A stretch of 64,000 nt of DNA from positions 16,858,945 through 16,922,944 of the forward strand of contig NC_087079.1 of NCBI RefSeq assembly GCF_026151205.1. The letters are read 5' to 3'. The notes under the pieces were generated by a model. It saw nothing but the letters and a program-made list of their open reading frames with translations. It was not told the DNA's origin and searched no databases. The stretch comes from Bolinopsis microptera (lineage: Eukaryota; Ctenophora; Tentaculata; Lobata; Bolinopsidae). Positions 15,301 through 63,900 of the stretch are shown here, in pieces (the stretch's first letter is position 1; every line of letters starts with the position of its first letter). The translations under genes and the position numbers were made by a program.

Positions 15301-17382
15301 ACATTGGTTAATGGGCACGGATCGAACGGTTACAAGGCAATATTTGGGTAACTTTGTCACACTCATGATACCATACCTCTATTCTAATGTGAGGTGTCCT
15401 AAAAACCCTTTCAACTCATTATTTGATGGTTGCTCTACCAATCATAGCCCTAAAATATATCGTTTTGAATAGTTAGCTAATACAGGCACTTGGTTATTGG
15501 GAAATGAGGTTAATTCTGTCACAATATATGAAATTTTAAATTTTGGGCGAATTATTTATATTTGATTTTGGTTTGAAAGGCGGGAAAACTTTATATGATG
15601 ACAATGTAGTTGGTGCGAGTTAAGATCAGTTGATGTTTACATTGTCACAAGAAATTATACGAAATCGTAAATAGGTTAAAAACAATGATTATAGAATGAA
15701 ATAGTCTCTTATAATAACTCTTATAATAACTGATGTGACAAAGTGAACATGTCTTGCCCCTATTTTAAAGATCTATATTCTTTACCTCTATTAGAATTCA
15801 ACATTCTTAAGTTTAACAATTTTAGGTTAAATTTGTCAAAGTCACTAAAAATGTGACAAAATTAACTTTCCCTGCCCCAACAATATCAAGATAGTGTGTT
15901 AAAATTGGCATACTAGAATGCTTTATTGCCTATATAAATCAATCCAAACTACAAAATATATGTTAATGTGATGACGATTACCTAACTCTTATAATAACTG
16001 ATGTGACAAAGTAAACATGTCTTGCCCCTATTTTGAAGATCTATAACTCTATTAGAATTCAACATTCTTTCAGAAACGATTGGAAGAATATTGTCCAGAA
16101 CATCAGAGCTCAATTTTAACAATTTTAGATTGATTTGTCAATGACACTGAAAATGTGACAAAATTAACTTTCCCTGCCGCAACAATATCAAGATAGTGCA
16201 CGTTAAAATTGGCATAGGGTGCTTTATTACAGGTATATTAATCGATCCAAACTACGAAAAATATCTTTTAATCTGATGACGATTACCTAACTCTTATAAT
16301 AACTGATGTGACAAAGTAAACATATCTTGCCCCTATTTTGAAGAACTATACTCTATTAGAATACTATGAAACTTAATCATAAAAAATTTTTCGATAAACT
16401 AGTTATTTTGCCAGCAAGGAGCTAACAGAGTTATAATAATTTTTTTGTGACGAAATTATCCTATTTTTGACCATGTTGTGGTAGTTTAATTGTGACACTG
16501 TTAACATATTACCACCTGATAATGATTCATGTGACTGGTGCATGGTACTAGCAGTGTTGTTTGATCCATAGTACGTAATATAAGGGGTTTAAGCTGGTAT
16601 ATCATTATTTGTTCAATTTCACACATGTTCAGATATCATCAAGATTATGTGACAAAGTAAACTTGGTTGTGCCTTCTGTGTTTTAATTCCTTACGACTAT
16701 ATGATATAATAACGATTCCCAGCACTTTCAGGCCATCAAATAAACCTACACTACTCAGCATTGCTTATCAGGGTGCCCTAAACATTCATCACATATTTTC
16801 TTTAATGTGTGACAGAGTAAACCTGAGTGCACCATCTAACGAAAAAAGTCGTCAAATATGTAGGTAATGGTCATATGTACCCATCCAATCAACTGGACAC
16901 TCAAAAATTTGGTCAAAAACGGCAGCAAGGGGTCCATATTTACTCCGTCACATGTTTATAGTGTGACAATGTAACCATTTCCGTGCCGGCCGTATTTAAG
17001 CGATATCTTATCACCTGATTAAGATATCGGTATGTGACAAAGTTAGCCTAGAGGATGATACGATTATCCTAACCATCAAGGGTTTATGTAATTTCATAGT
17101 GTGACAAATTCAACTACACTGTGCCATTTAATAGGGTCACTTATATTTACCAATATCCTCAAACTCAAATGAACGTGTCCATATAGCTTACACTTTTAGC
17201 ATAATCTGACCTATAGATGTGCCCCCCCCCCCCACTTTTAACATAATCTGACCTATAGATGTGCCATCCATCCTCCTCTCAAACTCCTTCCTATGAAGTT
17301 CCTGCTTCTCGTGGTTATTGAAGTCCTCCACAGTCAGATAGCTGTCCTGACAGAGCACACAGTGGAAGGATTGAGCTGCCAT
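12349..17382 (-). CDS. C2H2 zinc-finger protein, copy B (complete, seven exons)
   Basis: I do not recognise an orthologue. Exons: 17253-17382, 14551-14668, 14218-14329, 13941-14079, 13511-13611, 13221-13342 and 12349-13072; all phases match, giving about 481 residues. Exon 1 starts MAAQSFHC and has a finger CVLC-x12-H-x5-H. Exon 2 has CKCC-x12-H-x5-H, and exon 4 has CSLCC...HHNDRNH. This wide His spacing is typical of matrin/U1-type RNA- or DNA-binding fingers. The C-terminal exon has an RSRSRTP stretch, a Pro/Lys-rich segment and then an acidic, helical tail ending in VPVTS. The exon 6 donor (GG before GTATGA) is inferred from phase; reading through it would stop after DAELSFD. The exon 1 donor could also be at 17211, because the donor region is duplicated. 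A nuclear role is inferred. Confidence 0.75.
13793..13930. mobile_element. hAT-like MITE, right terminus eroded
   Basis: Begins CAGGGACAAAAGG and shares its interior (TCGCGATTATTTT, AAAATTTGTCGCAAA, GGGAAAAATCGCGATTCC) with the complete element at 36782-36920. The right TIR (expected CTTTTGTCCCTG) is missing. Flanks GTAACTCAC and GTAATTCAC suggest an 8-9 bp target duplication. It lies beside the donor of zinc-finger exon 4 in the right duplicate only. Confidence 0.75.
15023..17187. mobile_element. 2.2 kb non-autonomous DNA transposon with 40-bp TIRs and subterminal repeats
   Basis: Left end TATATGGACACGTTCATTTG at 15023 and its reverse complement at the right end near 17187 extend as inverted repeats of about 40 bp. 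No coding frame is seen. Many copies of a motif like TGTGACAAAGTAAAC occur, on one strand near the left end and on the other through the right part, often with a nearby TGCC. A longer block (GATGTGACAAAGT through CTTGCCCCTATTTT) repeats near 15730, 16000 and 16310. The ends may be flanked by TA. The element sits in intron 1 of zinc-finger copy B. Superfamily unknown. Confidence 0.75.
17211..17264 (-). repeat. Duplicated 5' splice-site segment of zinc-finger exon 1
   Basis: On the minus strand the segment ACATCTATAGGTCAGATTA, followed by TG[T/C]TAAAAGTG, occurs twice, separated by a run of 12 G. Each copy contains the same candidate donor (ATAG before GTCAGA) in the same frame, so either can splice into exon 2. 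Confidence 0.8.
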
Positions 17383-17769
17383 TTTCTATACCTAGTGTTG
17401 TAGGAGGTAAAAAATTAAAGAAAAAAATTAAATAACATTTTTTTAAAAAATTAAAAAAAACAGTTGTAAGTACTCATAAAGCTAAAGGTGCTTTAATATA
17501 CATTTCGTTATATTATTAACCACATGGAAACTGCTTTTAAAAAGTTGGATAATGATGATATTATGGATGCTAATTGCTAATATTAAATACAGCGTGCTAA
17601 CGTTTGAATCTCAATACTTTTTATTGGTTGGAACTACAACAATAATCACATTATATTAAGCAACCACAGATTTATCAACAGTATCACTCAAAAGTCAAAA
17701 TAGCTATAAAACACTTTTCGAAAATAAATTATAAAAATACCAAATAATGCACGGACCAATTTGAAGAGG

Positions 17770-18654
17770 TCATGAACCCTTATCAGCGATATTTGTGTCT
17801 GTCTGTAATGATTCGTCCTTTGCTATTTTCACAAACTCTGACTGATCGTCATGTAGTTCTTGAATAACTCTCTTCGTCCCAAATAAGTTCTTCGAACTGT
17901 GCACTTTATCAATATCAGAAAACGGTGAGATATACCTTTTATGTCTCATCTCTTTTTCGTGCAAGTCATACTTTCTCAAATCTGATTCGTCTATAAACAA
18001 CATGGATTTAGGAAACAACACTTTAAACTCCTCCCCACTAATCCGAGTGAAATGTTCAAGATCCCCAAAATTACAGTCCTCCACAGGAATGACCCTTGTT
18101 TTGGATCCCCCATACCAGGTCAAATTCCTAACTCGCACGTGATCACCTGGTAATAACACAACTTCTAGAACATACGGCGTGCACTTCTTATGAAGTTTTC
18201 TATTAACAACACCAAGAGATAACACAATAGATACCAGCGTGATGATATCAAAAAGAAAGAGATCAGAAGTAACAAAAAGACTCCCAATACACCCCAGCCA
18301 CAGGTAGTGTCCCACAAACAGGTGCTGTCTTCCTTTCAAGTCGTGTTCATCTTTACTGTACATTTTCATGAACATCTTCTCGCCTTCGTTTAGCTTGATC
18401 TTACCCACACCGACCCGATGTTTTGGAAATATTTGCTTGAAAGAAAACCAGGCATTTGATATAGCTTTAGATTTGATTCGTGGTAAGAGAGAATTTGTTG
18501 GTTCGACAGATCTTCTTTGGCTGAGAGTAACCGGGACATTGGAGCGTGGTTTGTGTGCTCCAAATGGGAGAAGTGAAAAACAAGCGAAGTGAATTTGTAG
18601 GTTAGTTACAGAAGGGGTAACTAGTCTTTTGGAGATTTGAGAGGAAATCATCAT
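17770..18654 (-). CDS. Two-TM, probably mitochondrial membrane protein (TMEM186-like)
   Basis: Single-exon frame of 294 residues. The first 60 residues are rich in Ser, Arg and Lys with few acids, like a mitochondrial presequence. Two adjacent hydrophobic segments lie at about residues 112-130 and 131-150 with a short turn. They are followed by a beta-rich soluble part with VLEVVLLPGDHVRVRNLTWYG and IPVEDC. In the TMEM186/TMEM70/TMEM223 group a hairpin of two TM helices is followed by a similar motif ending in a tryptophan/glycine turn and an 'IP' stretch; TMEM186 is an assembly factor of respiratory complex I. The match is from memory of the motif pattern only. The start is the first of two adjacent ATG codons. 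A basic tail after about residue 230 is not explained. Confidence 0.5.
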   Translation of the reverse strand: MMISSQISKRLVTPSVTNLQIHFACFSLLPFGAHKPRSNVPVTLSQRRSVEPTNSLLPRIKSKAISNAWFSFKQIFPKHRVGVGKIKLNEGEKMFMKMYSKDEHDLKGRQHLFVGHYLWLGCIGSLFVTSDLFLFDIITLVSIVLSLGVVNRKLHKKCTPYVLEVVLLPGDHVRVRNLTWYGGSKTRVIPVEDCNFGDLEHFTRISGEEFKVLFPKSMLFIDESDLRKYDLHEKEMRHKRYISPFSDIDKVHSSKNLFGTKRVIQELHDDQSEFVKIAKDESLQTDTNIADKGS

Positions 18655-25532: not shown

Positions 25533-25599
25533 CTTCCTCTTTCAGTCCTTCCTTTCTTCCTTTCTTTTTTCCCCTTTTTCTTTCCGCCTTTTTTTCTTT

Positions 25600-28583: not shown

Positions 28584-31540
28584 ATGGGAAACCTATCTGG
28601 CTATGTTAAGATGCTTGCGCACTCTGCATACTTCAAGGGGATTATTATGGGAGCCATCCTCCTGAACACTGTCACATTTGCTATATCATCTAGTCTTGAA
28701 CCATCAGAGAAAACGATTATCTACATTAACATACTAGATGGCGTTGATAGCTGTTTTCTTGCTCTTTATTCCCTCGAATTTGTCATCAAGCTATACAGTT
28801 ATGGTCGTGGTTACTGGTTCAATGGATTCAACTGCTTCGATTTTGGAGTTCTATTATGCTCCTTAATGCAGGTCAGTTGAGTCATTTATACTGTAAATTT
28901 AATTTTTAACTTTTAACACAGCCCACTCAAAGAGAATAGTTCATTTTTATTCAAATTGTAATTTCTATGCTATAAATCACAGTCTATTATGAGTGGTTGT
29001 CTTTAATAACTTTGGTATAGAACTGAGCACTTCATTTGAATTTCAATGTGTCATTTGTGCCCAATAAATTATAAGGTAATGATTTAACTGATTATTGTAG
29101 TTTTATGACTACGTAGTTTTCTTAATTGTTTGAATTTTTTCAGTTGGTGTTATCTCAAACTGAGGCTCAGAACCTTGGAGTCATCAAAGTCATGAGGTCT
29201 CTTCGAGCTCTCAGGCCACTAAGATCAATTTCTCTTATCGGTGGACTGCAGGTAATTTATTATTATTCGGTAGATCTAGAGTTTTTCATAATTTATGTTA
29301 TATCTATGAGCATGAGTAGTAATACTGAAATATCGCATGCTGACTCCTATAATATAATATTGAATTATAAATTTGTTTCAATTTGAACCATTAAAAATTA
29401 CTTCATTTACAACAATTACTGAACTGAAACCACCCATTAAGGTAGTTGTCACAGCTCTCATTGCCACCTTCACTGGCTCTTTCATTCACATCATCTTGTT
29501 ACTCTGCCTATTGATGTTTGTCTATGGAATCATGGCATTCTATGTGTACGGCTATGATACTGCTACAGATACAAGCAACGAGTTCTGGGGCAGCTTTGGG
29601 AAGTCGTACCTTAGGTACATCACAATATGAAATTACATTTATGTAGTATGTGAACGACCCCTTATATATAATATTATATCATTTTTAAATAATTGCACCT
29701 TGCATCACTTTGCTGTTCATTTTATGAGGCAGCAAACTTGTTTGTGTTTGAACTGGGTATTATAAGGTGACAATATCATTAGTTGAACTCAAATTCTTAG
29801 AAAAAATTGTATGCTCTAGTCTTTAACAAAATGCTTTGCAGTTTGTTCATACTGATAACAGCCGAGGGCTGGACTGATGTGATGAAAAGTCTTAAGAATG
29901 GAAGGGAAAACTTCGGAATGTACTTCTTCATCATCAGTTTTCTCTTCATTGGTCACTTCATATTTGGCAATCTTTTTGTTGCAGTTGTTATTGAGCAAAT
30001 CGATAGAGGTAGGTCAAAAATAATTGGCTGCTTCTTTGAATGTAATTTCGCCATTTAACAAGGTACCATATACAGTAAAACCCCGATTTACCACGGCCAT
30101 CTCTTTCCCCCAAATAGGGTTTAACATGTATAATGTAAACAACCAATACCCCAATTTACTACAAACCCTGATTTACCGTTGATGTTTCCTTTCCCCCAAA
30201 CTCTGCGGTAAATCGGGGTTTTACTGTAATGTATTTTGCCAGATTCTATATAATATTAATAAACCATTCAGCAACGGCTGGCTACCAAAAGAGGATTGAA
30301 ACGAAAAAAGCAACAGTTATCTACAATAAAAAGAAAAAAGCCAAAGTCGTTCAAGAATCTGAAATAAAACACATCATTAATCAAATGAAGTCAGGGGATT
30401 TCAAGAGCTTTCCCAGAGCAGTGCTCGATAAATACAAGCACGTTAGAAAAGACGAGTTCTTTATTAAACAAGACGTTAAATGTGTTCCTTTATGGGTTGA
30501 GAGTTTCAACCTGGAATACAATAAACTTGGTGTCCATTATAAGATGATCAGGGATTATCACTTTGAGGTTAGTTAACAACGTTAGTAGACAATGTTAGTA
30601 GACAATGTTAGTAGACAATGTTAGTAGACAATGTTAGTAGACAATGTTAGTAGACAATGTTAGTAGACAATGTTAGTAGACAATGTTAGTAAACAACGTT
30701 AGTAGACAATGTTAGTAGACATCTATGCTTTTAATTGATCTGACTTGTTTTCTCAATTTACCACTTTAATTTGCTTCAATCATGTCTTGAAATAATCATG
30801 AGATAACGATCAAATTGTGATTAAAAAGCTCTAATTAACGCCCTAAAAGCATAGACTAGTTCATTGGCCAATTTCTTACAGATTCCTAACACAGTATCTG
30901 GAGTTAGTTAAAGTTAAACTTTGTCTTCAGGTGGTAAACTGTTTGGGTAACCTAATGAGCGATATGGACCAGTCAGTCCAAGTAATGATCATGGAGAAAC
31001 AAGCTGAAGAACAGGCAGTATTTCGTCGCAGCTCTAGAAGTGCCAGCTTCTTAGGGGGCTTGAGACGACTCAGCCATAGAATATCTATATTTGGCCCGAA
31101 CAAAGGTGGACAAAATCTTCTTGGTGAAACAATTGTTAACGAAAATCCAGCACTGGCTATTGAAATAGTAGATTCTCAAGAGGGGATTAAGGTTAGCACT
31201 AAACCACATTATCTGTAAGAATATACCTTAGTTAAGGTTAGTAGTTTCAAGAAAACCTTAGTTCTTTGAAGTTATCATGTCTATACACAGCGTACAATTA
31301 TTTGATGATTTGAAAAAATCACAGGGAAGCTGTCTGAGTTGCTTTGGATTCGTTGACGACTGTAGATGTGCCAACCCTGAGATTGAAGCACAAGCTCTTG
31401 AAGAAGAGAGAGAAGGTAGAACTGGGCGATTGTACTCGACTAACACCACCAAATGGTTTGGAGGCGAGCCACTTCAGGGCCCCAGACATAGCACCTCCTC
31501 AAAATCCTCAGCAAAATCGAGTTACAAACGCAATGATTAA
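28584..31540 (+). CDS. CatSper-type sperm cation channel subunit (CatSper3/4-like)
   Basis: One-domain voltage-gated cation channel of the CatSper family, which forms the sperm flagellar calcium channel. Seven exons in phase: 28584-28871, 29144-29251, 29442-29614, 29842-30008, 30272-30567, 30931-31191 and 31262-31540, about 523 residues. Exon 1 covers S1-S3 (ILLNTVTFAI...FNCFDFGVLLCSL). Exon 2 is S4 with Arg spaced every three residues (VMRSLRALRPLRS). Exon 3 is S5. Exon 4 has the pore TAEGW, matching the T-x-[DE]-x-W filter, and S6 (FIFGNLFVAVVIEQID). The C-terminus is helical and basic, ending in a Ser-rich tail. WTDVMKSL after the filter is closest to CatSper3 and CatSper4. The ATG at 28584 leaves a short N-terminus; an upstream exon may be missing. 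Last acceptor chosen by phase. Confidence 0.85.
30073..30226. mobile_element. pogo/Tigger-like MITE in CatSper intron 4
   Basis: Inverted ends CAGTAAAACCCCGATTTACC at 30073 and the reverse complement ending at 30226, flanked by TA on both sides (30071-30072, 30227-30228). Length 154 bp, non-coding. The start resembles Tigger/pogo termini, and TA duplication fits the Tc1/mariner superfamily. Confidence 0.88.
30568..30722 (+). repeat. 13-bp tandem array starting on the CatSper exon 5 splice donor
   Basis: About 11-12 copies of GTTAGTAGACAAT. The first, GTTAGTTAACAAC, begins at the first base of the intron (exon 5 ends at 30567), so each unit repeats a GTTAGT donor-like start. Confidence 0.95.
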
Positions 31541-32185: not shown

Positions 32186-32485
32186 ATGGAAACTGAATCA
32201 GATGAAGAAGTCACAGTAATTGTGAACTTAGAAAATGTAGATGAAATTGAAGACGTTGCCGATATCCAGATCCTCGAGTTGGACTCAGAAACACCCTACA
32301 TCCAAGTTGGGGGAATGGTATTCAAGGGAAAGTACCGGGAAAGCATCGGTACTCACATGCTATTTGAAAAAGAAGAAGGAGGAAAGTATGGGTATGTTAT
32401 GAAGACAGAGAAGGAGCTGAACTGTAAAAAAGTTGTTGTGCTACCAAAAGAGATGTGCCAAGACATGGGAACTGAACCTTCATGA
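32186..32485 (+). CDS. GTF3C6: General transcription factor IIIC subunit 6
   Basis: Small TFIIIC subunit of the tau55/TFC7-like beta-barrel family, used in RNA polymerase III promoter recognition. Single exon, 99 residues (human about 213). After an acidic start it has VTVIVNLENVDEI, then LELDSETPYIQVGGMVFKG and YRESIGTHMLFE, which follow the family block 'D.E.P.lQvg..vF.GeYed.lGT..iFee'. The end KKVVVLPKEM is shorter than in vertebrates. Intronless here, with a poly(A) signal 83 bp after the stop. The start is the first ATG; an in-frame upstream exon is not needed. Confidence 0.88.
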   Translation: METESDEEVTVIVNLENVDEIEDVADIQILELDSETPYIQVGGMVFKGKYRESIGTHMLFEKEEGGKYGYVMKTEKELNCKKVVVLPKEMCQDMGTEPS

Positions 32486-35900: not shown

Positions 35901-38900
35901 CAGTACAGGTAGCCCAATACTGGACGCTGCACTGGCACATGTTACTCTGGTTATAGAGCACTGTACTAAACTTACCTTCAACAACAAAGACAAGGTCAGC
36001 CGCGCGCATCTTTGTTTGACACGTGCTTTCAGTTTTGTGTTTTCGTGATCATCATAATGCTTTTTTTCTAGCTTCAATTTTTATCAGATTTCCCTAATAA
36101 TTTGTAGTTAAAACTAAAACTCTAAAAGTGAATGAAAATGTGGGGTTTAAAGGTTTAAAGGTCTAATGACGCACAAAGACCTGCCAAAACATGCTCGTAA
36201 CATAGTTACAACACCAGATCGTAGGTTTAGCAGCACAAAGACCTGCCAAAACATGCTCGTAAAATATTTCCAACTCCAGATCGTAGGTTTAGCAGCGTAC
36301 CTGCCAAAACATGCTCGTAAAATAGTTACAACTCCAGATCGTAGGTTTAGCAGCGTACCTGCCAAAACATGCTCGTAAAATAGTTACAACTCCAGATCGT
36401 AGGTTTAGCAGCGTACCTGCCAAAACATGCTCGTAAAATAGTTACAACTCCAGATCGTAGGTTTAGCAGCGTACCTGCCAAAACATGCTCGTAAAATAGT
36501 TACAACTCCAGATCGTAGGTTTAGCAGCGTACCTACCAAAACATGCTGGTAAAATAGTTACAACTCCAGATCGTAGGTTTGGCAGCGTATCTGGAGTGCA
36601 TCAAGATATTGGATACTATCTTCGAGCCGTGCCAATCAGTGGAGGTGCAGCACGAGATCCTAGCAGCCATGACCATGATACTATCCAATCTGAAGAGTGA
36701 TAAGACAAAGTATATCCTGCTTCCTGCTGCTCTGATCGTGGTCATGAAACATAGTCCTGAGTTTAAGGTGAGCAGTGGGACCAGGGACAAAAGAAAATCG
36801 CGATTATTTTGCCCAAAAATCGCGATACCGCGACAAACCAAACAGACGACACATAAAATTTGTCGCAAAGAATGGGAAAAATCGCGATCCCGCACATGCT
36901 GAGATTTCCTTTTGTCCCTGAGTGGGACAAGTAACTTCTTGCTAAGATGAAATGTATGCAATATTTTAACTAGCTGTACTACAAGTGAACAGGATTAGAT
37001 AACGAAATGTATGTATGTCACTCAGCACCTTACAAGACATTTAGTCTTGACCGCCGAGTACGATTTCTGTTGGTGTTGAGTGAATTAAACAAATTTATAA
37101 TAATAACCACCTCGCTGGTTTGATTTATTACTCCACACACGTTATAACTGTTAAGTACTTTTCTTTTTTGTTGTTGCCTGGACGGTGCCGCGCCGGTAGC
37201 TCTAATGACCAATTTACAAAAAGTTATATACATAATAATATTATATTTTAAGAACTGCACCCCAATTTAAGTGTTCGAAACGTCAGCTCTTGACTCAACG
37301 TATGAAACGAATTAAAAAAATCAATCTTAGATCCTGAAATCTGTTCACTATAAATACCACTGTGATCCTCAAATATCTATTCTTAGAGTACACTGAAAAC
37401 CAGGATTTTCATCTTATTCTATTTCCCAGTTGAATCCGGAGCAGAACGAATACATGACATTCCTATACTCTGACGTCATCGCCAAAAGCTACGAAACCTG
37501 CTCACTAATGTACGAGATCATCATGTTCACCCTCTCCTTCGCTCCTCGTATCTCTCGGCTCCTTCAAACATACATTCCCAACATTTTCAAGATTGTAGCT
37601 TATCGTCCGACTACGTTTGCTAGGGAGATTGCAATGATGCTTCCGCATTTTTATCATTCCACTGTATTGAAGGAGCTGTTTATAACCATTGTACAGATGC
37701 CTGTCCTATCTGCTCTCATGCTGGCTAACCTTAAGGTATACAATTCAAGTTATTTCAGAATTCCACAAATGTGGCCTTTAAAAAGATAAAATTCGATTTG
37801 ACTTCGACTGCACGGACTAGCGAAACATGTTCAAATTAAACACAAAGACTTTTAAAAACCAGACATGTTATCTGTTTGTTAACTCGTCCAGCACATAAAG
37901 GACTTCTTATCTCCCAGACGAGTAGCGCGACTGACTGGTTACAGAGACTGCGAGTAAACAAGATGTCACCAGTAGACATAACCAGGTTGTACAGCGAGCT
38001 GGATCTTGCTCATCCTAGAGTTGTGGCTGCTTCTCAACTTTCTGCTGTTCTTCTTAAACTATTCCTTGCTCAGGTCAGGGTCGTTTATCTTAAATTATAC
38101 GTTTTTAAAAGAATAATAATTGTTACTATAGCAGATAATTATACTCGAGTTGTTTTTTAGTAACAACCCACGATTTCTTCCTTAACGAATCGTTTGGAAA
38201 GTCTGGGAAGGGCAGTTAAGCGCATACTGCAGACCTATCCCTAAGTCTCACATTCCAGATTTCGGGTCGTCTTATCACATGACATGCACTCAGAATAGTC
38301 TCAAGGCGAGTCAAGTGACGTCCAGACGTTTCAAATCACGTGATACTGGATTTTCGACTATGCAGGGTCGGGTTACATGACACGTGCTATGTAATTAGGA
38401 GTGTTTTACTAATCCAGTCTTAATGAGCCCTGCCCTAATGAGAGGCTATAACTGTCCCGTATAAATAGCCTTGTAAACCTGACCTGATTATCAACAGTTC
38501 CCTCTACAACACCACAACATCCACCCCACTTCTGACCAGCTCTCGTAATGTCCAAAACCAGAAACGTAGATGAAATATTTCCAGACTGCTACAGCCTGGA
38601 ATCCCAGATAGGAGTTGGCGGATACGGCAAAGTGTGGACCTGTACGGACAACCAGACCCAGGAAACCCGCGCTGTGAAGATAGTCCCTGATAAGATGGTT
38701 CGGAGAAAGTCCTGGAGCCTGGAACACGGTAGAAAGATCCCAGATGAAGCTGTCCTGTGGTTACCCCTCTCTCATCCTAACCTGGTGTCTCTTCTTGAGG
38801 TGTTCTACATCCCTAAAACTAAGTACTGGTTCTTTGTTATGGAATACGACGAGGAGTACATCGACCTCTTCAACTTCATCGACAGAAACGGCCCCTTCTC

Positions 38901-41043
38901 CTCTGCCAACGCCTGCTTCATCGCTCGGCAAGTCATCACAGTGATGCTCTACCTCATCTCATACGGAGTGGACCACAGAGACATCAAGGACGAGAACATC
39001 ATGATAAGCCCCACCACTCTCCACATCAAACTCCTCGACTTTGGCTCCGCTAGCAGGCTCTGTCCGGACACTCGCTACACCACATTCCAAGGAACGGACG
39101 TCTACATTCCTCCGGAATACTACCGGCACAAGATGTATTCCCCTCTCCCGGCTGCTGTGTGGAGTATTGGATGCCTGGTTCACTGTCTCATAGCGGGAGA
39201 TGGACCTTTCAGTGACAAGTCGGAGATAAAGGAGTACTCGGAGATAAAGTGGCTGCATGTGGGAGATGAGCTGGCTAAGGAGTTTGTGGAGAGGTGTATG
39301 ATGAGAGATGAAGATGAGAGGTTGGGTGTGGACGATTTGTTGAGGCATAGGTGGTTCAATGAGCCTGAGATTGGTTCTGTCTGAGTTCTGACACAATATT
39401 GTGTGCATGATCATGATATTATAATCTATATTAATTATGGCAACCTTATTTATATTAAATATAATATGTATGTAATGATTTTTGAAATATTTTGCCTAAA
39501 ATACAATAAAAACTGGGTTTCTTTTTTTCTTTTTAATCCAAGTTAAAAAGATGATAATCAAATAATAACCAATCTAACTTGAAATTGACCATCATATTAA
39601 TTGTCTCGATTTACAGTTAATTGAGCACGGTGACACGCTAATATTCTGGGATTGTTTCCTGTACCTTTACAAAATACCAGACATACCGGGATACAAAGAC
39701 AGCGTTTCTAAAGCTATCCTCAACCATCTCAAACGTGTGAGTTTACTTACATGTCATGTTTCAAAAACAATCTATATAATCTATATAATCTCTATAAGTA
39801 TTTTGTTTTTGCAGCGCAACTGAATTTAAATAACCTTCTCGCTGGCTGACCATTCAACCAAGTATTAAATTTAACACCTTACTGACATTCTTAGAATTCC
39901 ATCTTATCCTAACAGGTATGTCAGTCGAGTCCCAACAGGATAGTGAACGACAACCAAGACAAGATGTTTGAGTACGTGCGGAAAATAGAGCAGTACCCTA
40001 ACTACTGTGTTTAGCACCAGACATCATAAACATTCATTCCATTTTCCTCCCCTCTGTAGGGTAGACTTAGCTCTGAGGTAAGCTCATTAACATCATCATC
40101 CCTCCCAGTACGTGCGGAAAATAGAGCAGTACCCTAACTACTGTGTTAGCACCAGACTCATTAACATCATCATTCCTCCCCTCTGTAGGGTAGAACTTAG
40201 CTCTGAGGTAAGCTCATTAACATCATCATCCCTCCCCTTTGTAGGGTACAACTTAGCTCTGAGGTGACACCACGTGACACGTTTCTAGGTTAAACACGCG
40301 CAGAGCACGAAATGTAAGATTCAAATTATTGAATCGATGGCATCATTTTTACACGATTACAGTGTAAGTAGTAGGTACTAAAAAGAAACCAATATTTAGC
40401 TATTAATTATATCATTATCTGACTGACCCCAGGTACACAAATCAGTACACAAGTCAGTAGAACAACAACTTTACATTATATCAGCCATGTCCTACACTCC
40501 CCTCCTTAACTCCTTGTTACTCCTTCTTGTAGTGCTGTCCGCTAAGGAACCAACTCTTAATGAGAGGACACTGACTTGTTTGGAAAACATAAAAACTAAG
40601 GTATTATCTTGTTGAAGGAAATTATACCTGTCCAATATATAATTACAATATATTAATGATGTAAGAACAAGGCTGAAGTTATAGGGTTTGCCTCGCATGT
40701 CTTTCCTTAACGTGCTATATCATAAGATTAATTATGGTAGTTGCATAAGGCAATGTGAAAACGATCATGTGATATGACGTACAGAAACTACATTCTACTT
40801 AAAGGCCGACAAAACTCACTCAACACATCTTCTAACACTACCAATCTCTAACAGGTGTTATCACGAGGCCCAACAATAGAGTCACAGTCCCTGATCCAGC
40901 TGGTTGACATGCTGTCCTCCACCCTCCGTCACGGTGGTGGGAGTTTGGTGGAGATCTACAAGACGGGAGAAACAGTGGGGCATGTTAACACTATGAACAT
41001 GTTGGGTGCTCTCAGTTTTATTGACAAAGCAGCTACAGTCTGA
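32907..41043 (+). CDS. 14-exon helical-repeat protein, possibly meiosis inhibitor protein 1 (MEI1)
   Basis: Exons fitted by phase: 32907-33074, 33285-33410, 33668-33780, 34420-34627, 34988-35044, 35207-35366, 35840-35994, 36570-36767, 37430-37735, 37918-38073, 39617-39736, 39917 to about 40079 or 40209, 40433-40600 and 40855-41043. The product is helical with Leu-rich repeats of HEAT/armadillo character (e.g. [33 protein letters not shown]), ending SFIDKAATV. No enzyme motif. The family resemblance to MEI1, a meiotic double-strand-break factor (plant PRD1), is an impression only. Exon 12 has an extra T giving an early TAG at 40012, but a tandem copy (40108-40209) has the open form [17 protein letters not shown] to a good donor. 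The ATG start is unverified; upstream exons may exist. Confidence 0.6.
35588..35820. repeat. 12-bp tandem array in intron 6 of the MEI1-like gene
   Basis: About 19 copies of AAATGTACATGT, changing to AAATGTACATAT at the right end, stopping 20 bp before the exon 7 acceptor (35840). Each unit is nearly self-complementary (TACATGTA). Confidence 0.95.
36180..36590 (+). repeat. 58-bp tandem array of a 3' splice site plus exon start (MEI1-like exon 8)
   Basis: Seven copies. Each has CAAAACATGCTCGTAAAATA, then GTTACAACTCCAG (the acceptor) and ATCGTAGGTTTAGCAGCGTA (the first codons of exon 8). The final copy runs into the real exon at 36570 ([12 protein letters not shown]). The array therefore holds seven equivalent acceptors. 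Confidence 0.93.
36782..36920. mobile_element. hAT-like MITE with 8-bp target duplication
   Basis: 139 bp with termini CAGGGACAAAAG and CTTTTGTCCCTG, flanked on both sides by AGTGGGAC. An 8-bp duplication and CAGGG-type ends fit hAT. It sits 14 bp after the exon 8 donor of the MEI1-like gene. Same family as 13793-13930. Confidence 0.92.
38460..38467 (+). promoter_or_regulatory. TATA box of the nested PIM-like kinase
   Basis: TATAAATA about 80 bp upstream of the kinase ATG (38548), leaving room for a 5' UTR of about 50 nt. It suggests the nested gene has its own promoter. Confidence 0.55.
38548..39384 (+). CDS. PIM-like serine/threonine kinase, intronless, nested in a host intron
   Basis: 278-residue minimal kinase. 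Glycine loop IGVGGYGKV (residues 21-29), catalytic Lys44 in [16 protein letters not shown] (HRD at 143-145) and DFGSA (Asp164) are intact, so it should be active. The PIM-type segment [19 protein letters not shown] and [20 protein letters not shown] matches the family, as do the RHRWF ending and the absence of regulatory domains. PIM kinases are constitutively active and controlled by expression. It is intronless and lies in the intron between exons 10 and 11 of the MEI1-like gene on the same strand, which suggests a retrocopy. GC content is higher than the surrounding intron. A TATA box precedes it. Confidence 0.87.
   Translation: MSKTRNVDEIFPDCYSLESQIGVGGYGKVWTCTDNQTQETRAVKIVPDKMVRRKSWSLEHGRKIPDEAVLWLPLSHPNLVSLLEVFYIPKTKYWFFVMEYDEEYIDLFNFIDRNGPFSSANACFIARQVITVMLYLISYGVDHRDIKDENIMISPTTLHIKLLDFGSASRLCPDTRYTTFQGTDVYIPPEYYRHKMYSPLPAAVWSIGCLVHCLIAGDGPFSDKSEIKEYSEIKWLHVGDELAKEFVERCMMRDEDERLGVDDLLRHRWFNEPEIGSV
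39918..40262 (+). repeat. Tandem partial copies of MEI1-like exon 12
   Basis: The exon segment GTACGTGCGGAAAATAGAGC with its donor end (TTAGCTCTGAGGTAAGCTC) appears at about 39974-40090 with an extra T and small insertions. It appears again at 40108-40217 in open frame, and its last 30 bases a third time at 40229-40263. Confidence 0.85.
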
Positions 41044-41300
41044 GCCTGTCACGTGACACACCCTGAACCTGTCACGTGACACACCCTGAACCTGTCACGT
41101 GACACACCCTGAACCTGTCACGTGACACACCCTGAACCTGTCACGTGACACACCCTGAACCTGTCACGTGACACACCCTGAACCTGTCACGTGACACACC
41201 CTGATTTACAAGACGGGAGAAACAGTGGGACATGTTAACACTATGAACATGTTGGGTGCTCTTAGTTTCATTGACAAAGCAGCTACAGTCTGAGCCTCCA
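41044..41300 (+). repeat. 23-bp array on the stop codon of the MEI1-like gene, plus copy of its last 90 coding bases
   Basis: Seven copies of CCTGTCACGTGACACACCC with TGAA start directly behind the TGA at 41041-41043. They are followed at 41203-41295 by a second copy of the exon 14 end (ACAAGACGGGAGAAACAGTG through the same TGA). Every unit contains the palindrome GTCACGTGAC (an E-box core). Confidence 0.92.
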
Positions 41301-41772
41301 ACTTGAATCGTAGTTTTTACAGTATAGTAATGGAGTGTTCAAAAGTTCAACTTGTAATTGTTGTTGATAATTAAATGTGATTTTTTAAGTTGACATTTTA
41401 TGTAGTAAGTCACAGATCGTATTGTAGGGAAAATTATGAAATGAAACCGGGGAAGCTCCAATGTGAGCTTGTATGAATGAGACTAAGCAATTAACATTTC
41501 TTTAAAGAAACAATTTTCAAATGCAGTCAGAAAAAGTCTGATTACGAATGCAAATCAAATATCTAATGTGAAATTGATTAGGTTTGATGTCTTTATCATT
41601 ATATAAAGAATTATAAATACAGCTTATTTGATTTCAAACATTTTGTTCCTACTCCACACAGGCTATTTTTACTTCAAAATCTCCAGCTTATATAAAGCTC
41701 TGTTTTTTAAGTCTACGTCACATGATCAAAATACAGCTTTCTGATTGGTCACCCCCCAGCTAGCGAAATGTC
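41301..41772. other. Intergenic region, TUBGCP6 promoter side
   Basis: AT-rich spacer between the MEI1-like gene and the first recognised TUBGCP6 exon. A TATATAAAG-like motif lies at 41689-41696, about 80 bp upstream of the ATG at 41773, and could be a TATA element. Confidence 0.4.
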
Positions 41773-44700
41773 ATGGAGCTGCCGGAGGTCAGGAATGTGG
41801 ACTCACCACGTGACCTGCTGAGGGACCTCGGGGAGGTTTACACGGACAGTGCAAAGCTTGGTAGAGATGTGGTGTACAGTCACATTCTCCGCGAAGGGGT
41901 GAGAGTCCAGGGTTATTTTATTTTATTTTTTAAGAGAGGCTGGGCCTGGTTGGCCCACGAGAGGATAGCATATGGATGCTTTGCCTACCTCTGGGGTATG
42001 GCAGTCCTGTGGGAGGATGCCTGTGGAATCAAGATATGTAGTCCAGGGTTATTGTTATCAGGGAAACTTGTTTTCTTTTTGAAAAGTCTTTCTGAGTTGA
42101 TACTTTCCTTAAATTTGTAGGAAATGAAAGAGATATGGTAAATCAGGGTATAGTAAATTTGGGTTTGTTACAGGTTTTAAAGAATGAAGATACGGTTCAC
42201 TGGAGAGAAGATTTCGCGCACTACTGCTATAACCTTCGTCACAGAGGTTTCTACGATGACACCAACTCTGTTGAGGATTCTGTAGAGCAGCTGGAAGGTT
42301 AGTTTTTGAGGGCCTGTTTTCGTTATTTTTTTTCTTCTGAGAAGCTTTAAAATTGAATCGATTCAAACTACGTTTGCACCTCTTGAAGGAATGTCGTCCC
42401 AACTTATGAGTATTGCTGAAAGCACAGTGTAAGGCCTACACGGACCGCCTCTAACTAGCCAATCCCTGTTTACATGCCGTGTAGCAGGGGACTAGAAAGA
42501 GCTAAACTAGTAAGCGGGGCATAGCCAATACACTATACTTCCATCATTATAATTTATCATGTAGTTAGCTTACTTGCTGACCAACATGTTCCATTATTCC
42601 ATTAATATATGTGTCCATATATAATATTTGCAGAAGAAGTGGGTGAAGGGGAATGTGACAGGCTGATGAAGTTTCTAACCCTTCTCGCTGGTTCTGTGTC
42701 CCACATAACCCCACGATCTGGCCTCATACCAACCGGCAAGCAAGTGGAAGTGTTACCACACCACGTGCTGCCTGCTGCGCAGAACCGGTACCATGGTGAC
42801 TCGTGCGCGCCTGGCGTACACAGCTCCGGGTATCTTATGTACAGAGATGAGCTGTTCACCAGTGTCAGCTCTTGTCCGGACATTAACCAATCTGAAAAAG
42901 TAAATTTATTAATTATTACAGGGATTTGTTTCAGTAGATTATAAATTGTGTGACCAACTTCTCTTACTTCAGTACGGCAAGTACTAAAAGCAGATTCAAC
43001 CAGGTCATTCTTTAATATTTAACTCGCCTAGATCAAGTAATGACAAATTGTCTCCATCAGATTTTGGCTGGATTTCCAGAGAGTTCCACAGTATCACGGT
43101 TCATCAGACCACCCAACAACAAACTGCCGCCCCCTAAAATCACCCTAACCGGGCTCCCAGTCCCGGAGCCAACCTATCAGCTCCTACCACTTCCTGCACC
43201 CCCTTCTAGAAGCCATAGTGTCGAGGAGTACAGTTCTAATCCTGTCCTTGCTGATCTGCCTGCTTTACCCCCGCCTACTGTTACTGGGTGGGTTGTCGTC
43301 CCAGATCAGATTTACACTGATATACATTATACACGCTGGTTTATAATTATAACGATTTTTGTAATAAAGGTGTGTAAGTATTCTTTTCAGCAAATAACAA
43401 AGTTAAAATTAACTGGTGAAAAGTCTTGAGAATCATGATAAAAGCATACCTTTATAATTGAAAACTTCAGTATATTCAAGTCCCTGTCCCTGAAGAGTGA
43501 TGATCTGCCAGTGTATCTGGGTCCGGTACTACGCACCACTGTCAAGGAGCGCTACCAGCCGACTCAGCGCAATATCACACAGAGATTTGCTCCTGTACGG
43601 CCCTCTAATAGTGCTGTTTCAGGTGCGTGCTTACTTTTGCTTGCAGGTATTCCTTATCTTCTTGTTACTGAGTTAAGCTCATTAAAGGATTGGTAATGTT
43701 TAGATATTAGTAAATTGATAATTCTACCCACTTTTAGATTATGAATTATGGTCGATTTTAACTTGTTAATTATTTAATTAGTACTAACTTGTTAAATACC
43801 AGACAGTTCTGGTGTAGAATCGGATGACGACCATGAAGCCTGGGAAGAAGCGTACAAGGACATGGACAAAGAGTTCCCAACTCCTACCTACGAACTTATG
43901 GGCAGGTAAATAAATTGGTTATTTATTAAAGTAATACATGTTACATGTAACTGTTACACTATGTAATTATTACATGTAACTGTTACAATATGTAACTGTT
44001 AGGGCAGGTGTTGCTAGACAAGTATGGAGTGAGCATTTCCAGATATATACGAAAACTATTTTAAGCCAGCTATGTAAGCTCACAATTCATATTTACACAA
44101 TGCTAACAATCCTCCCTAACACACACAGGAAGGTCCTACAAGAGCGACCCTATCTGACCGAGTCAGGATCCCAAGTGTTACATGTAATTGTTACATGTAA
44201 CTGTTACAATATGTAACTGTTACAATATGTAACACAATTCATATTTACACAATATTAACAATCCTCCCTGACCCACAGGAAGGTCCTACAATTCATATTT
44301 ACACAATGTTAACAATCCTCCCTGACACACAGGAAGGTGCTACAAGAGCGACCCTACCTGACCGAGTCAGGATCCCAAGTGTACACCCGGCTCTGCGTCT
44401 TGCTGTGCTCCCCGTATAGTGACCTAGATGTTGTGACCGAGCAACATGTTCTCTATCAGTGCCAATACGTTCTCATCGGTATCCCTACTAGCATCTTTCA
44501 GTTTGATAAGGTAGGATATTCAACAGGATCTTCGGCGAAGTATAAGTAGATACTGGGGCAGTGGGCAGAACTGAGGAAATACAGGGTGTTTCAAAAATAA
44601 TGTCCTGATTTTAAAAAACACTACAAATTCTTAAAAAGGAGCAAATGCCCCCTATCAGTTGCATTAGTTCATAAAGCTTACAAATTTAAGTTTTAAGCAC

Positions 44701-57900: not shown

Positions 57901-60900
57901 ACGCCGGTTATGTGTTAATTAATTACAGGCATAGCAACGAGTTTTTGGTGCTTGACGACTGTTACAAACGGATCAATCATCAATTTAAGTGTTATTTTGG
58001 TGAAACAAGCTTAATAAATTACCGAGTGATAAAATTCAGCACGTCTGAAGTCAAAACAAATAAAATTATGATATCAGCAGTCAGCTGATAAACTCGTGGC
58101 TGTGGGCTGATTATTTAACAGTTAATCGACACTGAATGGTAGAAAGCATTGGAATACATAGTTGAGAACAGATGTTACTTTACAGTTACATTCAAGAAGC
58201 AACTATAATATCAAGATTGGGGCATGCTTTTAAAGAATCGTATAACAAATAAAAGGCTCGAAAGTCGATGGTGCTGTGATGTGTCGAGTAAGCATCAAAA
58301 TGTATTAGTTTATGTTAGATACAAATAATAACTAAGACGAGACAGCATATTTTATTACAGTCAATAAGTTGGCATACGATGCAGTAATATGACGTGACAT
58401 GATACGCATATCGTTAACTCGTTATTGTTAACACGAAACAAAACCGCGCAAAGTATGAAATGATCTACAACCAAACCACATTCAGATCGACGGCGACACC
58501 TCAAATGCGCGCAGGATTTTTCAAGTTCTGCACGCCTAATATAATATAAACGATTATTACATTGTACATGCGCCAAACACCACTCTGGGATACAATAAAG
58601 TAGAACAATTAAATTGTATGCAGTAGGGAAATTTGATCGTGCGTGGTGTTACCGCGGCGAAATTCTTGTTGATTAATCAGTTTTATGAAGGAGCTATCTT
58701 GGTAAAATTTTGTAGTATATATGAAGATTTGTTCACGGGCTTGTTGCCGATTTGGATTCTTTTAGCCGTTTTCATTTTATTGTTTCTTTTGGGGAAAAAT
58801 TTGTGATTGTTGTTGTGTTTCAAATGTTTTATTTGTTGTTGTTATATTTCGTAGTATTAATAGATAATTTTAACAATGTAAACTTTGCAGCTATGTAAGT
58901 TTTCAGTACGTCCAGTTTTATGCAAAGGCATGTAGCCGAAACTTCGACAAAGAATTAAGTTTTTAAAACACACTGAGTGGAACTCTCATTTCGTTCGTCA
59001 ACTACAATAAAATAAGTGGACATTACGCTTTCTATAGCTCGAATTTTTAAAGCTCCATGCATTTCTATCTTCTTCTATTTGAATCATATGATGATTTTTG
59101 AAGTTTTGGTAATATTTTATCATATACTTGAATAGAAACTAAGCCGTAATCAAGCAGATGTTAACAACACATTGTTATGATTTCAGGGTTTGCCGACAGG
59201 AACAGCACTGATAGAATATCTCTACCACACTGCTGAGATCCTTACTGCCTCCCCCTACTACAAGATAATGCTGGCTTTAATACGGGCTGCATTTGCACCT
59301 ATGTCGAAGTAAGTCCCCACTACAATCTAAATGCTGGCTTTAATACGTCGTGCTTTTGCGCATTATAGTCAAGTAAGTAGCCTCCCCCCCAACTCAAGAA
59401 ATGCTGGGCTTTAATACGGGCTGCTTTGCGCCTTATTCCAGTAAGTTAAGCCTTCCCCCAGACTACAAATAATGCCTGGCTTAAAATACGGGCTGCTTTT
59501 GCACCTTATGTCAAGTAAGTAGCCTCCCCCTACTACAAGATAATGCTGGCTTTAATACGGGCTGCTTTTGCGCCTCATGTCAAGTAAGTAGCCTCCCCCT
59601 ACTACAAGATAATGCTGGCTTTAATACGGGCTGCTTTTGCGCCTTATGTCAAGTAAGTAGCCTCCCCCTACTACAAGATAATGCTGGCTTTAATACGGGC
59701 TGCTTTTGCGCCTTATGTCAAGTAATGTAAGCCTCCCCCCCTACTACAAGATAATGCAGGCTTTAATAACACGGCTGCATTTGCGCCTTATGTCAAGTAA
59801 GTAGCCTCCCCCTACTACAAGATAATGCTGGCTTTAATACGGGCTGCTATTGCGCCTTATGTCAAGTAAGTAGCCTCCCCCTACTACAAGGATAAAGCTG
59901 GCTTTAATACGGGCTTGCTTTTGCGCCTTAAGTCAAGTAAAGTATCCTCCCCCAACGACAAGATAAAGCTGCAGGCTTTAATACGGGCTGCTTATTGGCG
60001 CCTATGTCAAGTAAGTAGCCATCCCCGAACTACAAGAAAATGCTGCCTTATACGGCTGCTTTTGCGCCTTAAAATTCAATAAGTACCGTTCCCCTACTAC
60101 AAGAAAATGGGGCGATGTGTGCATTAAAAAGGGCGGGTTGTGCTTTAGTTGCGGCTTATGTCGAGAGTTATCGCTGATAAGCCTTCCCCTAGTACTACAA
60201 GATATGCCTGGCTTTAATACGGGGCTGCTTTTGCGCCTATGTCAAGTAAGTAGACCTTCCCGCCTACTTCAACAAGATTAATGCCTGGCTTAATACGGGC
60301 CTGCTTTTGCGCCTTATGTCAAAGTAAGTACCTTCCCCCTACTAACTACAAGATTAATGCTGGCTTTAATACTGGCCTGCTTTTGCGCCATCAGTGGTCA
60401 ACTAAGTAGCCTCCCCCTACCTACAAGATAAATGCTTGCTATTAAATACGGCTGGCTTTTGGTGCGCCTTATGTCAAGTAAGTAGCCTCCCTACTACAAG
60501 AATAATGCTGGCTTTAATACGGGCTGCTTTTGCGCCTTATGTCAAGTAAGTAAGCCTCCCTCCCCAACTACAGAGATGAGATGCTGGCTTTAATAACGGC
60601 TGCTTTTGCGCCTTATGTCAAGTAAGTTAGCCTCCCCCTACAACAAGATACTAGCTGGCTTTAATAGGGCTGCTTTTGCGCCTTATGTCAAAGTAAGTAT
60701 CCTCCCCTACTACAAGATAATGCTGGCTTTAATACGGGCTGCTTTTGCGCCTTATGTCAAGTAAGTAGCCTCCCCCTACTACAAGATAATGCTGGCTTTA
60801 ATACGGGCTGCTTTTGCGCTTTAAGTCCAAGTAATGCCCTCCACCAACTACAAGATCATCTGGCCTTTAATACGGGGCTGCTTTTTATGCGCCTTATGTC

Positions 60901-63900
60901 CAAGTAAGTAGCCTCCCCCCTACTACAAGATAATGCTGGCTTTACTACGGGCTTGCATTTTCGCCTTATGTCAAGTAAGTAGCCACCCCCCACAACAAGA
61001 TAATGCTGGCTTTAATACGGGGGGGCTTGCTTATGCGCCTTATGTCTAGTAAGTAGCCTCCCCTACTACAAGATAATGCAGTCTTTAATACGGCTGCTTT
61101 GCGCCTTAATGTCAAGTTAAGTAGCCCCCCCTACTACAAGAAAATGCTGGCTTTAATACGTGCTGCCTTTTGCGCCTTATGTCAAGTAATAGCCACCCCC
61201 TAACTACAAGTATCATGCTGTCATTAATAACGTCTGCTTTTGGCGCCTTTATGTCAAGTAAGTTATAAACATAGTTATAAACACAGCTTCAATAATTATA
61301 AACGCAGTTATAGAAGCAGTAGTTGCAGTCGTTGAAGCGAACATTGGATTTCAGGAACACTAATATATATTATCTTGTCAGTCCTTGTTACCAATTAATT
61401 TTGTTCAGGTTTTTGGAGCTGTGGCTGTGTGAGGGACGGGTCTAGTGACGACGGACGAGGTTTAATGTTGTCGATCACATCATCGAGTGGATAACAAAGA
61501 GACTATCTCTTCTGGCAGGTATGTACAACGTTTTTACCAAATATTTAACGGATAATTACCATGAACAAAGTAAGTGAAATTATAAAGTGACGTTTAAATG
61601 CCTACCAGTAGAACTTGCTTTCTTTGCAAGACTTCTAATTCACATACTTGTACAGATATAATAACACAAGTTGTCTATGTTTCAGTACGCGTACACGGAG
61701 CGAGAAGAAGTGAAATTGCCGGGATTCCTGGAGGAGTTAAGGGAGCAACTTGTCAACACAGGCAAACTAATCAACCTCTTCCGGCTATGTGTTCCCGATG
61801 GCAGTTTTAATTGTTTCTCTCAATTATCTGAATTAATTTGAATTATCCTGCGACCTGTCTGTGCCATGATTGTCGTCGTTGGATCAGATATAGAGTGAGC
61901 CACTAGCTCACTTAGTAAAACCTTGTGTTCTAATTTTTTTTGATCCAGATAACTCTAATTTTAACAAATCTTTCAGCACCCGCTTAGTGTATCAAAGATA
62001 CGGCCCCCGAAATTACAACTGACGTTTAATGACCATAACATAACACTGAACATGAAGAAGTGGGAATCTTATCAAGATGCTGTTGAGAGGTGAGCAGTCA
62101 ACTTCTTTGTTGGGTGTTGAAATTTGTGGGGCCATTTTTCTACACCTTGAGGCGTATGTTAGTTTGTTCTACAGTACTAGCTACGAAGATCTATTTTGGA
62201 ATTCACTCACTTTTGATTAGATCTTTGGTGTGTATAATGCATATACATTTAATAACGATAAACAAACGTTTATCTATAGGGAATTAAACACACAAGCTGT
62301 CGTGAGGGACATGAAGAAACGAGAAGAGGAAGATCGTAGAATAGCGAAGCTTGCCGCCGCAAAGGACGATGCTAGAAGAAGGTATCTTGTAATTCTTAAT
62401 TAATTCCTTTTAAAACTAGAAACATGTAATTACGGGACAGCAAGTTGGCAGGCAACGAACTGATATTTGCATAAATTCTTCACTCCTCACTCTTCACTCC
62501 TCAGGATAGGGATGATAATGGCGGAAGCAGGAGCGCTGCGTGCCAGTGCTGTCTCCAACAAGAAACAAGAACTGCAGCGGTTACAAGAGCAGATGTTAGA
62601 CAGAGCAGAACAGAGAGCGGCTATGTTGGAGGCTGAGAAGAAGGAGGAAACGGAGAGGATTGAGAGGAATCAAACTGAGCAATACGAGGTGGTGTACCTG
62701 ATGTATCTGTAAATGTACCTGATGTACCTGTAGCTGTAAATGTACCTGATGTACCGTAGCTTGTAAATGTATCCTGGTGTAACTGTAAATAAACTTGTGT
62801 GTTTTAAAAAGAAGCGTGATTAAAGTTTGAGTGGTCCTAGGGCTACATGGCTTATAGATTATTATTCAGATAAAAAATTATTAACTGCTAATTACAGTAA
62901 TAAAAGCCCCCTCCGCCAAATTTACAATATTCTCCTTGCAGTTGGTAGGAAAAATGCGAGCCCAGCTAGAAGAATACTACGGCTCACTAACCAGAGAGAA
63001 AGCTCGTGAAGAAAGACGTAGTCTCTGGAGGATACAGAGGATGAAATTAAACAGACTTCGTCGAGCTCACCTCATGTTGGAAGCCAGCCATCTTAACACA
63101 GAACTGCGACAAAAACTGGAAGAAAACAGGCCGAGTGGAAGTCAGGTTATTCAGTCGGATGTTCAAGGACAAGGCACGCAGTCTGACCTTGGGACTGTTT
63201 CAAACCCTGAGACTTCACCAACACTTTCTCAGACTTCTGATAATACAGACTTTATTAGTGAGACTGTGTTAATTGATGCTGGTTCTAAAACTAGAAAAAC
63301 TTGGGATCAACCTATCAACATCAAATATTAAACATCATTCCGACGAAAATGATGAGGCTGTGAAGCTTCAAGATATAAGCATTTCTAGTAGTGTGAATGA
63401 TAATGGTAATGATATCGGGAATTTTGATGCTTCTGATAATGATTCTGAAATTTCGTTTACCGTGAGTCCTGGAAATCCATGCAAATCGGATACCGATGAA
63501 ACTGAGGTTTCAAATTCTAAGGAGCCCTTATCTCGACTTAATAGTGAAGGAAGTGATATGAAGAATGTTTTGTATTCTGGAAAAGGTGAATCGATTCCAG
63601 AGCATCACGTGACATCAAAGCATGAACCCGATGGGCAAATGAAAGACGTTTTGTACGGAAAATCAGAGACTGATAAAACTGAACATCCAAAATCTAAGGA
63701 GCCTCTATCAAGACTTGACAGCGAAGGAACTGAAATGAAAAATATTCTTTATTCTTGCCAGAGTTCAGGTAAAACCGTATGATTCGAATAAGAAGGATCC
63801 ATTGTCCAGGCTTGATAGTGAGGGAAGTGAAATGAAAGACATTTTGTATTCGAATAATTCCCAATCTAACGATCACATTGTTGCTTCAAATGAACCTGCT

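Follow-up and report, generated by a model that had tools for sequence, protein, structure and literature searches.

Tandem arrays spanning exon-intron junctions in the ctenophore Bolinopsis microptera: anatomy, frequency and probable origin

Introduction

Do tandem repeats meet exon-intron junctions by accident, or are junctions places where such repeats arise or persist? This question is raised by a stretch of 64,000 nucleotides from the ctenophore Bolinopsis microptera (NCBI RefSeq assembly GCF_026151205.1, contig NC_087079.1, positions 16,858,945 to 16,922,944, forward strand), the whole of which we refer to as the window. An initial annotation, made from the letters alone, had listed at least seven exon edges that are multiplied in tandem together with their splice sites. 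We examined these arrays in the genes of the window, looked for the same anatomy at loci elsewhere in the genome, and compared the counts with random placement. We conclude that the arrays are very probably “mirages,” that is, minisatellites that go back to a local tandem duplication with a splice junction inside it.

Results

Repeat units that contain a splice site and exon sequence

We built gene models by hand for three genes of the window, a CatSper-like channel (8 exons), a MEI1-like gene (14 exons), and TUBGCP6 (17 exons modelled), with 72 splice junctions in total. Tandem Repeats Finder (TRF), run on the window, recovered most of the arrays of the initial annotation. At three junctions, the splice site and exon sequence both lie within the repeat unit:

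36179..36593, plus strand: MEI1-like exon 8 acceptor array, 58 bp x 7.1 (TRF and gene model)
36570..36767, plus strand: MEI1-like exon 8 (gene model)
44082..44345, plus strand: TUBGCP6 exon 7 acceptor, three copies of a 54-bp unit (TRF and gene model)
44333..44510, plus strand: TUBGCP6 exon 7, within the part that aligns with chains of gamma-tubulin complex component 6
59187..59308, plus strand: TUBGCP6 exon 11, whose final 62 nt are array unit 1
59247..61263, plus strand: TUBGCP6 exon 11 donor array, 69 bp x 28 (TRF and gene model; copy sequences unreliable)

These three cases had also been listed in the initial annotation, which counted seven exon 8 acceptors, three exon 7 acceptors, and 30 exon 11 donors. 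The MEI1-like unit consists of the intron end, AG, and about 20 nt of the start of exon 8, and the copy that is in frame is the last one. At TUBGCP6 exon 7, two copies are in tandem and a third lies upstream; each comprises intron end, AG, and exon start, and the last alone is in frame. The 69-bp unit at exon 11 is 62 nt of exon end followed by gtaagta, and the frame is kept by the first donor alone. A sequence composed of exon 11, cut at this first donor, and the beginning of exon 12 aligns to GCP6 chains with no gap where the two meet. The multiplied sites had been proposed as a source of alternative splice sites. At exons 7, 8, and 11, all copies but the exon-proximal ones read into a stop or shift the frame, and useful alternative proteins from these copies therefore seem unlikely on the basis of the predicted reading frames.

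The identity of TUBGCP6 is given by matches to gamma-tubulin complex component 6 in both Pfam and PDB. The MEI1-like name is a label carried over from the initial annotation, and its sole Pfam support is a marginal match to SPG48 (26.1 bits against a cut-off of 25).

Multiplied junctions recur across the genome

We selected 77 loci, irrespective of their repeat content (289,576 bp with 530 computed junctions), from the genome sequence (264.65 Mb in 232 contigs, with all profile matches seen lying on C1 to C13). Sample 1 comprised 49 loci with kinesin, myosin, chaperonin, and ABC transporter genes, taken from profile matches only (199,448 bp). Its exons were the 156 matches without internal stops (151 with both edges) out of 253, the rest lying beyond the fetched sequence, overlapping, or bearing stops. 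The 28 loci of sample 2 (90,128 bp) carry SNF2 or ion channel genes and supplied 57 exons from 190 listed matches; the test for this sample was fixed in advance, with a predicted ratio of 3-4. Exon edges were computed from the profile matches together with a splice-site matrix, for which the gene models of the window served as the training set. An edge at the end of a domain may fall inside an exon, and part of the 530 junctions is therefore false. We counted arrays with a unit of at least 9 bp. L039 of sample 1 and L055 and L065 of sample 2 had no usable exon and were omitted, as were arrays that lie entirely within an exon; these omissions reduced sample 1 from 116 arrays to 115.

The pattern is found well beyond the window: 16 arrays of all unit sizes cross one of the 530 junctions with at least 8 bp of exon, or about 3%. 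For example, a donor in L011 carries 31 nt of exon plus gtaggagag 22 times, an array in L017 repeats 26 nt of exon 52 times, and acceptors are multiplied in L026 (x 6.6) and L032 (x 4.7). Since loci fetched without regard to repeats show multiplied exon ends and splice sites, multiplied exon edges are a property of this genome and not of this window. Unit length is 54-69 bp at the three window junctions and 12-109 bp in 15 of the 16 arrays, the sixteenth being reported with a period of 207. The exon share of the unit is 8-57 bp, also in 15 of 16 (in L068 the annotated exon spans more than one unit), a variability that would follow if breakpoints had no fixed position. At the unit ends of three clean cases, microhomology amounted to exact extensions of 1 bp (the 26-bp array of L011), 3 bp (L054), and 5 bp (the 40-bp array of L011). 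The 16 arrays divide into 7 donors and 9 acceptors, similar numbers that argue against a donor-polar cause, and thus do not favour the R-loop origin that had been put forward for the window.

Longer units are founded at junctions in excess

We compared the arrays with two null models. Under the first, in which whole arrays were placed at random, there was no excess: 14 of 116 arrays in sample 1 overlapped a junction against 18.0 expected (P = 0.90), and the three gene spans of the window gave 4 of 14 TRF arrays against 4.1 (P = 0.65). Lowering the TRF score threshold in the window gave 6/32 against 5.2 (P = 0.42), and array edges within 10 bp of a junction numbered 3/14 against 1.4 expected (P = 0.16). 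The initial annotation had argued that minisatellites placed at random would seldom coincide so exactly with junctions; for whole arrays this fails, because exons are dense and arrays are long. These counts are what pure chance would give if a minisatellite-rich, exon-dense genome placed arrays on junctions as anywhere else. Tandem arrays cover 33,007 of the 289,576 bp of the two samples; for another ctenophore, Hormiphora, a genomic share of 13% has been reported for tandem repeats (PMC8527503). As a sole test, permutation of whole arrays was judged to be the wrong null, as arrays cannot spread into exons. Because a self-copying array cannot enter the exon, it is the founding unit, not the final array length, that must have met the junction.

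We therefore placed founding units at random as the second null. In the window, 6 of 14 units touch an exon edge (within 3 bp) against 1.23 expected (P = 5e-4), one of the six being a stop-codon edge and two merely abutting. In sample 1, units of at least 25 bp lay at a junction in 11 of 38 cases against 2.88 expected (P = 3e-5), and units of all sizes in 16 of 115 against 5.43 (P = 6e-5), while units of 9-24 bp showed no significant excess (5/77 against 2.55, P = 0.11). The pre-set test of sample 2 gave 2/11 against 1.09 for units of at least 25 bp (P = 0.30) and 4/35 against 1.81 for all of its units (P = 0.097); both pointed in the same direction as sample 1, but neither was significant and the predicted ratio was not reached. 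We also added, post hoc and in both samples, the outer edges of stop-bearing matches as junctions. With these, units of at least 25 bp numbered 13/38 against 3.74 in sample 1, 3/11 against 1.34 in sample 2 (P = 0.13), and 16/49 against 5.07 in both (P = 6.6e-6); again there was no significant excess for units of 9-24 bp in the two samples (7/103 against 4.56, P = 0.17). A strict test that required at least 8 bp of exon gave, for units of at least 25 bp, 14/49 against 4.12 in both samples (P = 1.2e-5) and 3/11 against 1.12 in sample 2 alone (P = 0.088). Restricted to arrays within 150 bp of a junction, it gave 14/31 against 6.25 in both samples (P = 0.001). Two-copy arrays, the simplest founding events, gave 6/21 against 2.40 (P = 0.02).

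In sample 1 and the window, then, the overlap of arrays with junctions shows no excess when whole arrays are placed; over both samples, units of at least 25 bp exceed uniform founding about 3-fold, whereas short units show no significant excess. The statement that chance would rarely hit junctions is thus supported for the founding of longer units and not supported for short ones. On this count we consider pure chance an unlikely account, even though sample 2, at unit level, would by itself agree with it.

The excess could have two sources. The first is that junctions are mutational hot zones, at which exon edges raise the founding rate through chromatin or through transcription- or splicing-coupled breaks; this would add to a mirage origin, and we regard it as possible, though somewhat less likely than not. 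The positions of array edges in sample 1 bear on it: 10 edges lie 5-70 bp inside exons, and 8 are no more than 4 bp away from a junction, where avoidance of exons would predict 1.1. Further out there are 3 at 5-14 bp (2.0 expected), 8 at 15-29 bp (3.2), and 3 at 30-59 bp (6.0). The unit-level excess for longer units, its presence close to junctions, and its presence among two-copy arrays all speak for a raised founding rate. Short units lack a significant excess, sample 2 alone is not significant with or without the post hoc junctions, donors and acceptors are hit alike with no polarity indicating one mechanism, and array density may vary with intron type, all of which counts the other way.

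The second possible source is persistence rather than birth. If deletions that remove an array were purged near exons, where the exon would also be hit, junction arrays would outlive others. Both sides near exons would then be enriched, as is partly observed for the edges of sample 1, and junction arrays should be older and more diverged. Comparing 14 junction arrays with 33 others, we found them if anything more uniform (median match 94.5 vs 93%, P = 0.095; normalised score 0.907 vs 0.867, P = 0.055). That junction arrays are not more diverged is mildly against a longer life, which we consider rather improbable as the source; it is also in keeping with a higher birth rate.

Copy-number change and reliability of the arrays

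Relatives of the junction arrays were sought by blastn among the 77 fetched loci. Two channel loci differ in copy number at an acceptor, with three units in L053 and two in L052 and a matched stretch that is 97.9% identical. L068 has about six copies of a donor of which L071, an 87.8% identical relative, has one. Shorter matches were also found at other loci (e.g., L020, L014, L016, L025, and L001). In one array of L011, all 23 of 23 units are identical, and its birth or turnover is therefore recent.

Four further pairs of loci (L012/L013, L034/L041, L044/L045, and L046/L047) are nearly identical, at roughly 95-99.8% in long matched pieces, and differ either in the number of array copies or by inserts in introns, of about 0.9 kb and 3.5 kb. 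No difference was seen at the spanned junction in these four pairs, whose similarity suggests retained haplotypes or recent duplications.

We next asked how far the copies themselves can be trusted. The 69-bp array of TUBGCP6 has 1 perfect unit of 28, with 191 variants, of which 115 are indels and 99 occur once. The MEI1-like exon 8 array has 4 perfect units of 8 and 10 variants. An ionotropic glutamate receptor (iGluR) reading frame of L079 has the iGluR ML032222a, from the ctenophore Mnemiopsis, as its best match among the top 60 of 258 PDB matches, whereas the matches of another such frame, L078, do not point to a ctenophore in particular. The assembly of B. microptera is described as 13 chromosome-scale scaffolds of about 254 Mb, built with wtdbg2 from PacBio reads and polished with Illumina reads (PMC10232365). 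The same source names continuous long read (CLR) and HiFi libraries for three species jointly, and we infer from this joint statement that CLR reads were used for B. microptera. The noisy 69-bp copies are likely uncorrected read error. Residual read errors are probably also the reason why the assembly shows broken coding frames in TUBGCP6 exons 12 and 17 (61409-61518 and 62942-63330).

Noise of this kind, together with the assembly method and the broken frames, could be taken to mean that the arrays as a whole are an artefact of assembling noisy long reads. Tandem copies are not a product of random read error, however, and clean arrays exist: besides the 23 identical units of L011, units are perfect in 6 of 6 in L025, 6 of 7 in L026, and 6 of 7 in L068 (the arrays of L003 and L070 and the 109-bp array of L027 are not clean). 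We therefore give this explanation almost no credence.

Discussion

A proposed origin of the junction arrays

The anatomy suggests the following course of events. A stretch of exon and intron, mostly 25-80 bp here, would be duplicated in tandem across the junction. Since reading frame and splice site would both be preserved in the copy on the exon side, the duplication would be tolerated. The extra copies, all of them intronic, could then grow in number through slippage or unequal exchange. Splicing would have to use the first copy of a donor and the last copy of an acceptor; the splicing machinery would therefore choose among near-identical sites by position.

Several points weigh against this reading. 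Splice-site use is read here from DNA alone. The tolerance of a duplication does not, on its own, explain an excess over uniform founding, which could stem from more frequent births at junctions or from greater longevity of the arrays, and “uniform” founding may itself be the wrong baseline. The P-values assume independent arrays, while L011, L017, L025, and L027 supply two or three each. L052 and L053, which differ in copy number, may be either alleles or paralogues. To these are added the two whole-array comparisons and the pre-set test of sample 2 given above.

It has also been reported that junction duplications are linked to intron gain (PMC4974935, PMC3087553), and each array might thus mark an intron that arose when a piece of exon containing AGGT was duplicated in tandem, as in the Rogers model. 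The exon 11 array stops 145 bp short of the exon 12 acceptor and therefore does not fill its intron, and we consider arrays as remnants of intron birth very improbable.

A wider proposal is that tandem duplications arise with raised frequency at exon-intron junctions in animals from ctenophores to amphioxus, and that several per cent of these junctions carry a minisatellite with multiplied splice sites that feed new introns and exons. This is possible, although we hold it to be doubtful.

Other exon edges and features of the window

The remaining repeats at exon edges in the window are as follows, together with the channel exon that one of them adjoins:

30272..30567, plus strand: CatSper3-like channel, exon 6 of this model (in-frame gene model; ends where the array begins)
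30568..30721, plus strand: CatSper-like donor array, 13 bp x 11.8 (TRF; array base 1 is intron base +1)
17192..17265 (about), minus strand: zinc-finger-like exon 1 donor, two copies of about 32 bp split by a C run (by eye; tentative)
39973..40265, plus strand: nested duplications round MEI1-like exon 12 (TRF and direct reading)
40953..41306, plus strand: 104-bp duplication of the last MEI1-like coding exon end and stop codon, the copies flanking a 23-bp x 7.2 array
62477..62503, plus strand: 14-bp x 1.9 repeat adjoining the TUBGCP6 exon 16 acceptor (exon start 62505)

The first five of these bear on claims that were upheld in part, weakly, or not at all. The channel array had been described as 11-12 copies of an exon 5 donor. 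It does start exactly at a donor, that of exon 6 in our model, and its 13-bp units begin with the donor-like GTTAGT; they contain no exon sequence, so the array only abuts the junction. A doubled zinc-finger donor is visible by eye as two copies of the last part of a small exon with its GT donor, but it is weak and missing from the TRF list. At exon 12 of the MEI1-like gene, for which two or three donors had been claimed, the duplications are nested: a segment of about 18-19 nt preceded by TGTAG occurs three times and is followed by GTAAG twice and by GTGAC once, leaving the exon limits ambiguous. What had been listed as a doubled exon-intron edge at the end of exon 14 is a duplicated stop codon and gene end, and the 104-bp duplication has no splice site.

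The channel gene matches Pfam Ion_trans (PF00520, E 3.9e-42). Its top scores in PDB are to single repeats of four-repeat calcium channels (E 4.5e-63), and the single-repeat animal channel among the best 60 of 157 PDB matches is CatSper3 (7eeb_C, E 5.6e-30, query residues 39-394). Because CatSper3 is the single-repeat animal channel among the PDB matches listed, “CatSper-like” appears to be a reasonable label. For the 43-aa zinc-finger-like exon, all zinc-finger matches lie below the Pfam cut-offs.

Several other features were found in the window. A satellite-like array of 44-bp units (258-6862, about 150 copies) carries variants that are mostly common to several units, with 82 of 533 occurring once, unlike the 69-bp array of TUBGCP6. 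An intronless protein kinase gene (38548-39384; Pkinase, E 1.8e-51) lies within a MEI1-like intron on the same strand, and a single-exon TFIIIC subunit 6-like gene (32186-32485; PF10419, E 8.5e-18) lies between the channel and the MEI1-like gene. There is a reverse transcriptase reading frame at 23496-25532 (RVT_1, E 8e-35). The large TUBGCP6 intron 10-11 (50200-57700) seemingly holds, by eye, two opposed retroelement-like reading-frame copies round a long inverted repeat, of which three reading frames had no Pfam match. A Pfam search with eight other reading frames of the window returned one reverse transcriptase and seven frames without a match.

Comparison with known systems

In the literature consulted, mirages have so far been a curiosity of amphioxus, described in only a few genes; they are reportedly first described in Canestro 2002 (Nucl Acids Res). 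We found no report of mirages in ctenophores in the part of the open-licence literature that was searched. If it is true that about 3% of ctenophore junctions carry mirages, above chance, the genome offers a natural experiment: near-identical competing splice sites resolved by position alone would be a direct test of exon definition, and intron birth by duplication would become measurable. The arrays also carry a warning for annotation, through cryptic splice sites and through unreliable copy numbers in noisy assemblies.

Mirages are described in amphioxus Adh3, the globins BflGb6 and BflGb9, TnC, and PGBD5 as minisatellite-like tandem duplications over the 5' or 3' exon-intron boundary, with units of 10-160 bp, many of them bearing AG/GT signals (PMC3087553, PMC3902484). 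Their copy number is variable, with 6 vs 3 units in two haplotypes; reverse transcription PCR (RT-PCR) suggested undisturbed splicing, and mirages were proposed to contribute to intron gain (PMC3087553, PMC3902484). As in amphioxus, the units described here span the boundary, hit both donors and acceptors, and mostly have lengths within 10-160 bp. Unlike the amphioxus cases, they are found in a ctenophore, their frequency was measured (16 arrays at 530 junctions), and they were tested against random placement; what they add to published mirages is this frequency and the excess at unit level. Splicing in amphioxus was examined by RT-PCR, whereas the present arrays are known as genomic sequence.

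Intron gain by tandem duplication under the Rogers model has been described for potato RdRp and for ATP2A1 (PMC4974935). There, too, splice signals are carried in the tandem duplication, and the potato case crosses an intron-exon boundary (PMC4974935), but those cases yield a new intron, whereas the arrays here are multiplied junctions of modelled introns. In human segmental duplications, expanded internal minisatellites alter gene structure, some of them at exon edges (PMC2812944). The arrays of B. microptera resemble these human internal tandem repeats in lying at exon-intron boundaries, while the human cases are young paralogues with transcript support (PMC2812944).

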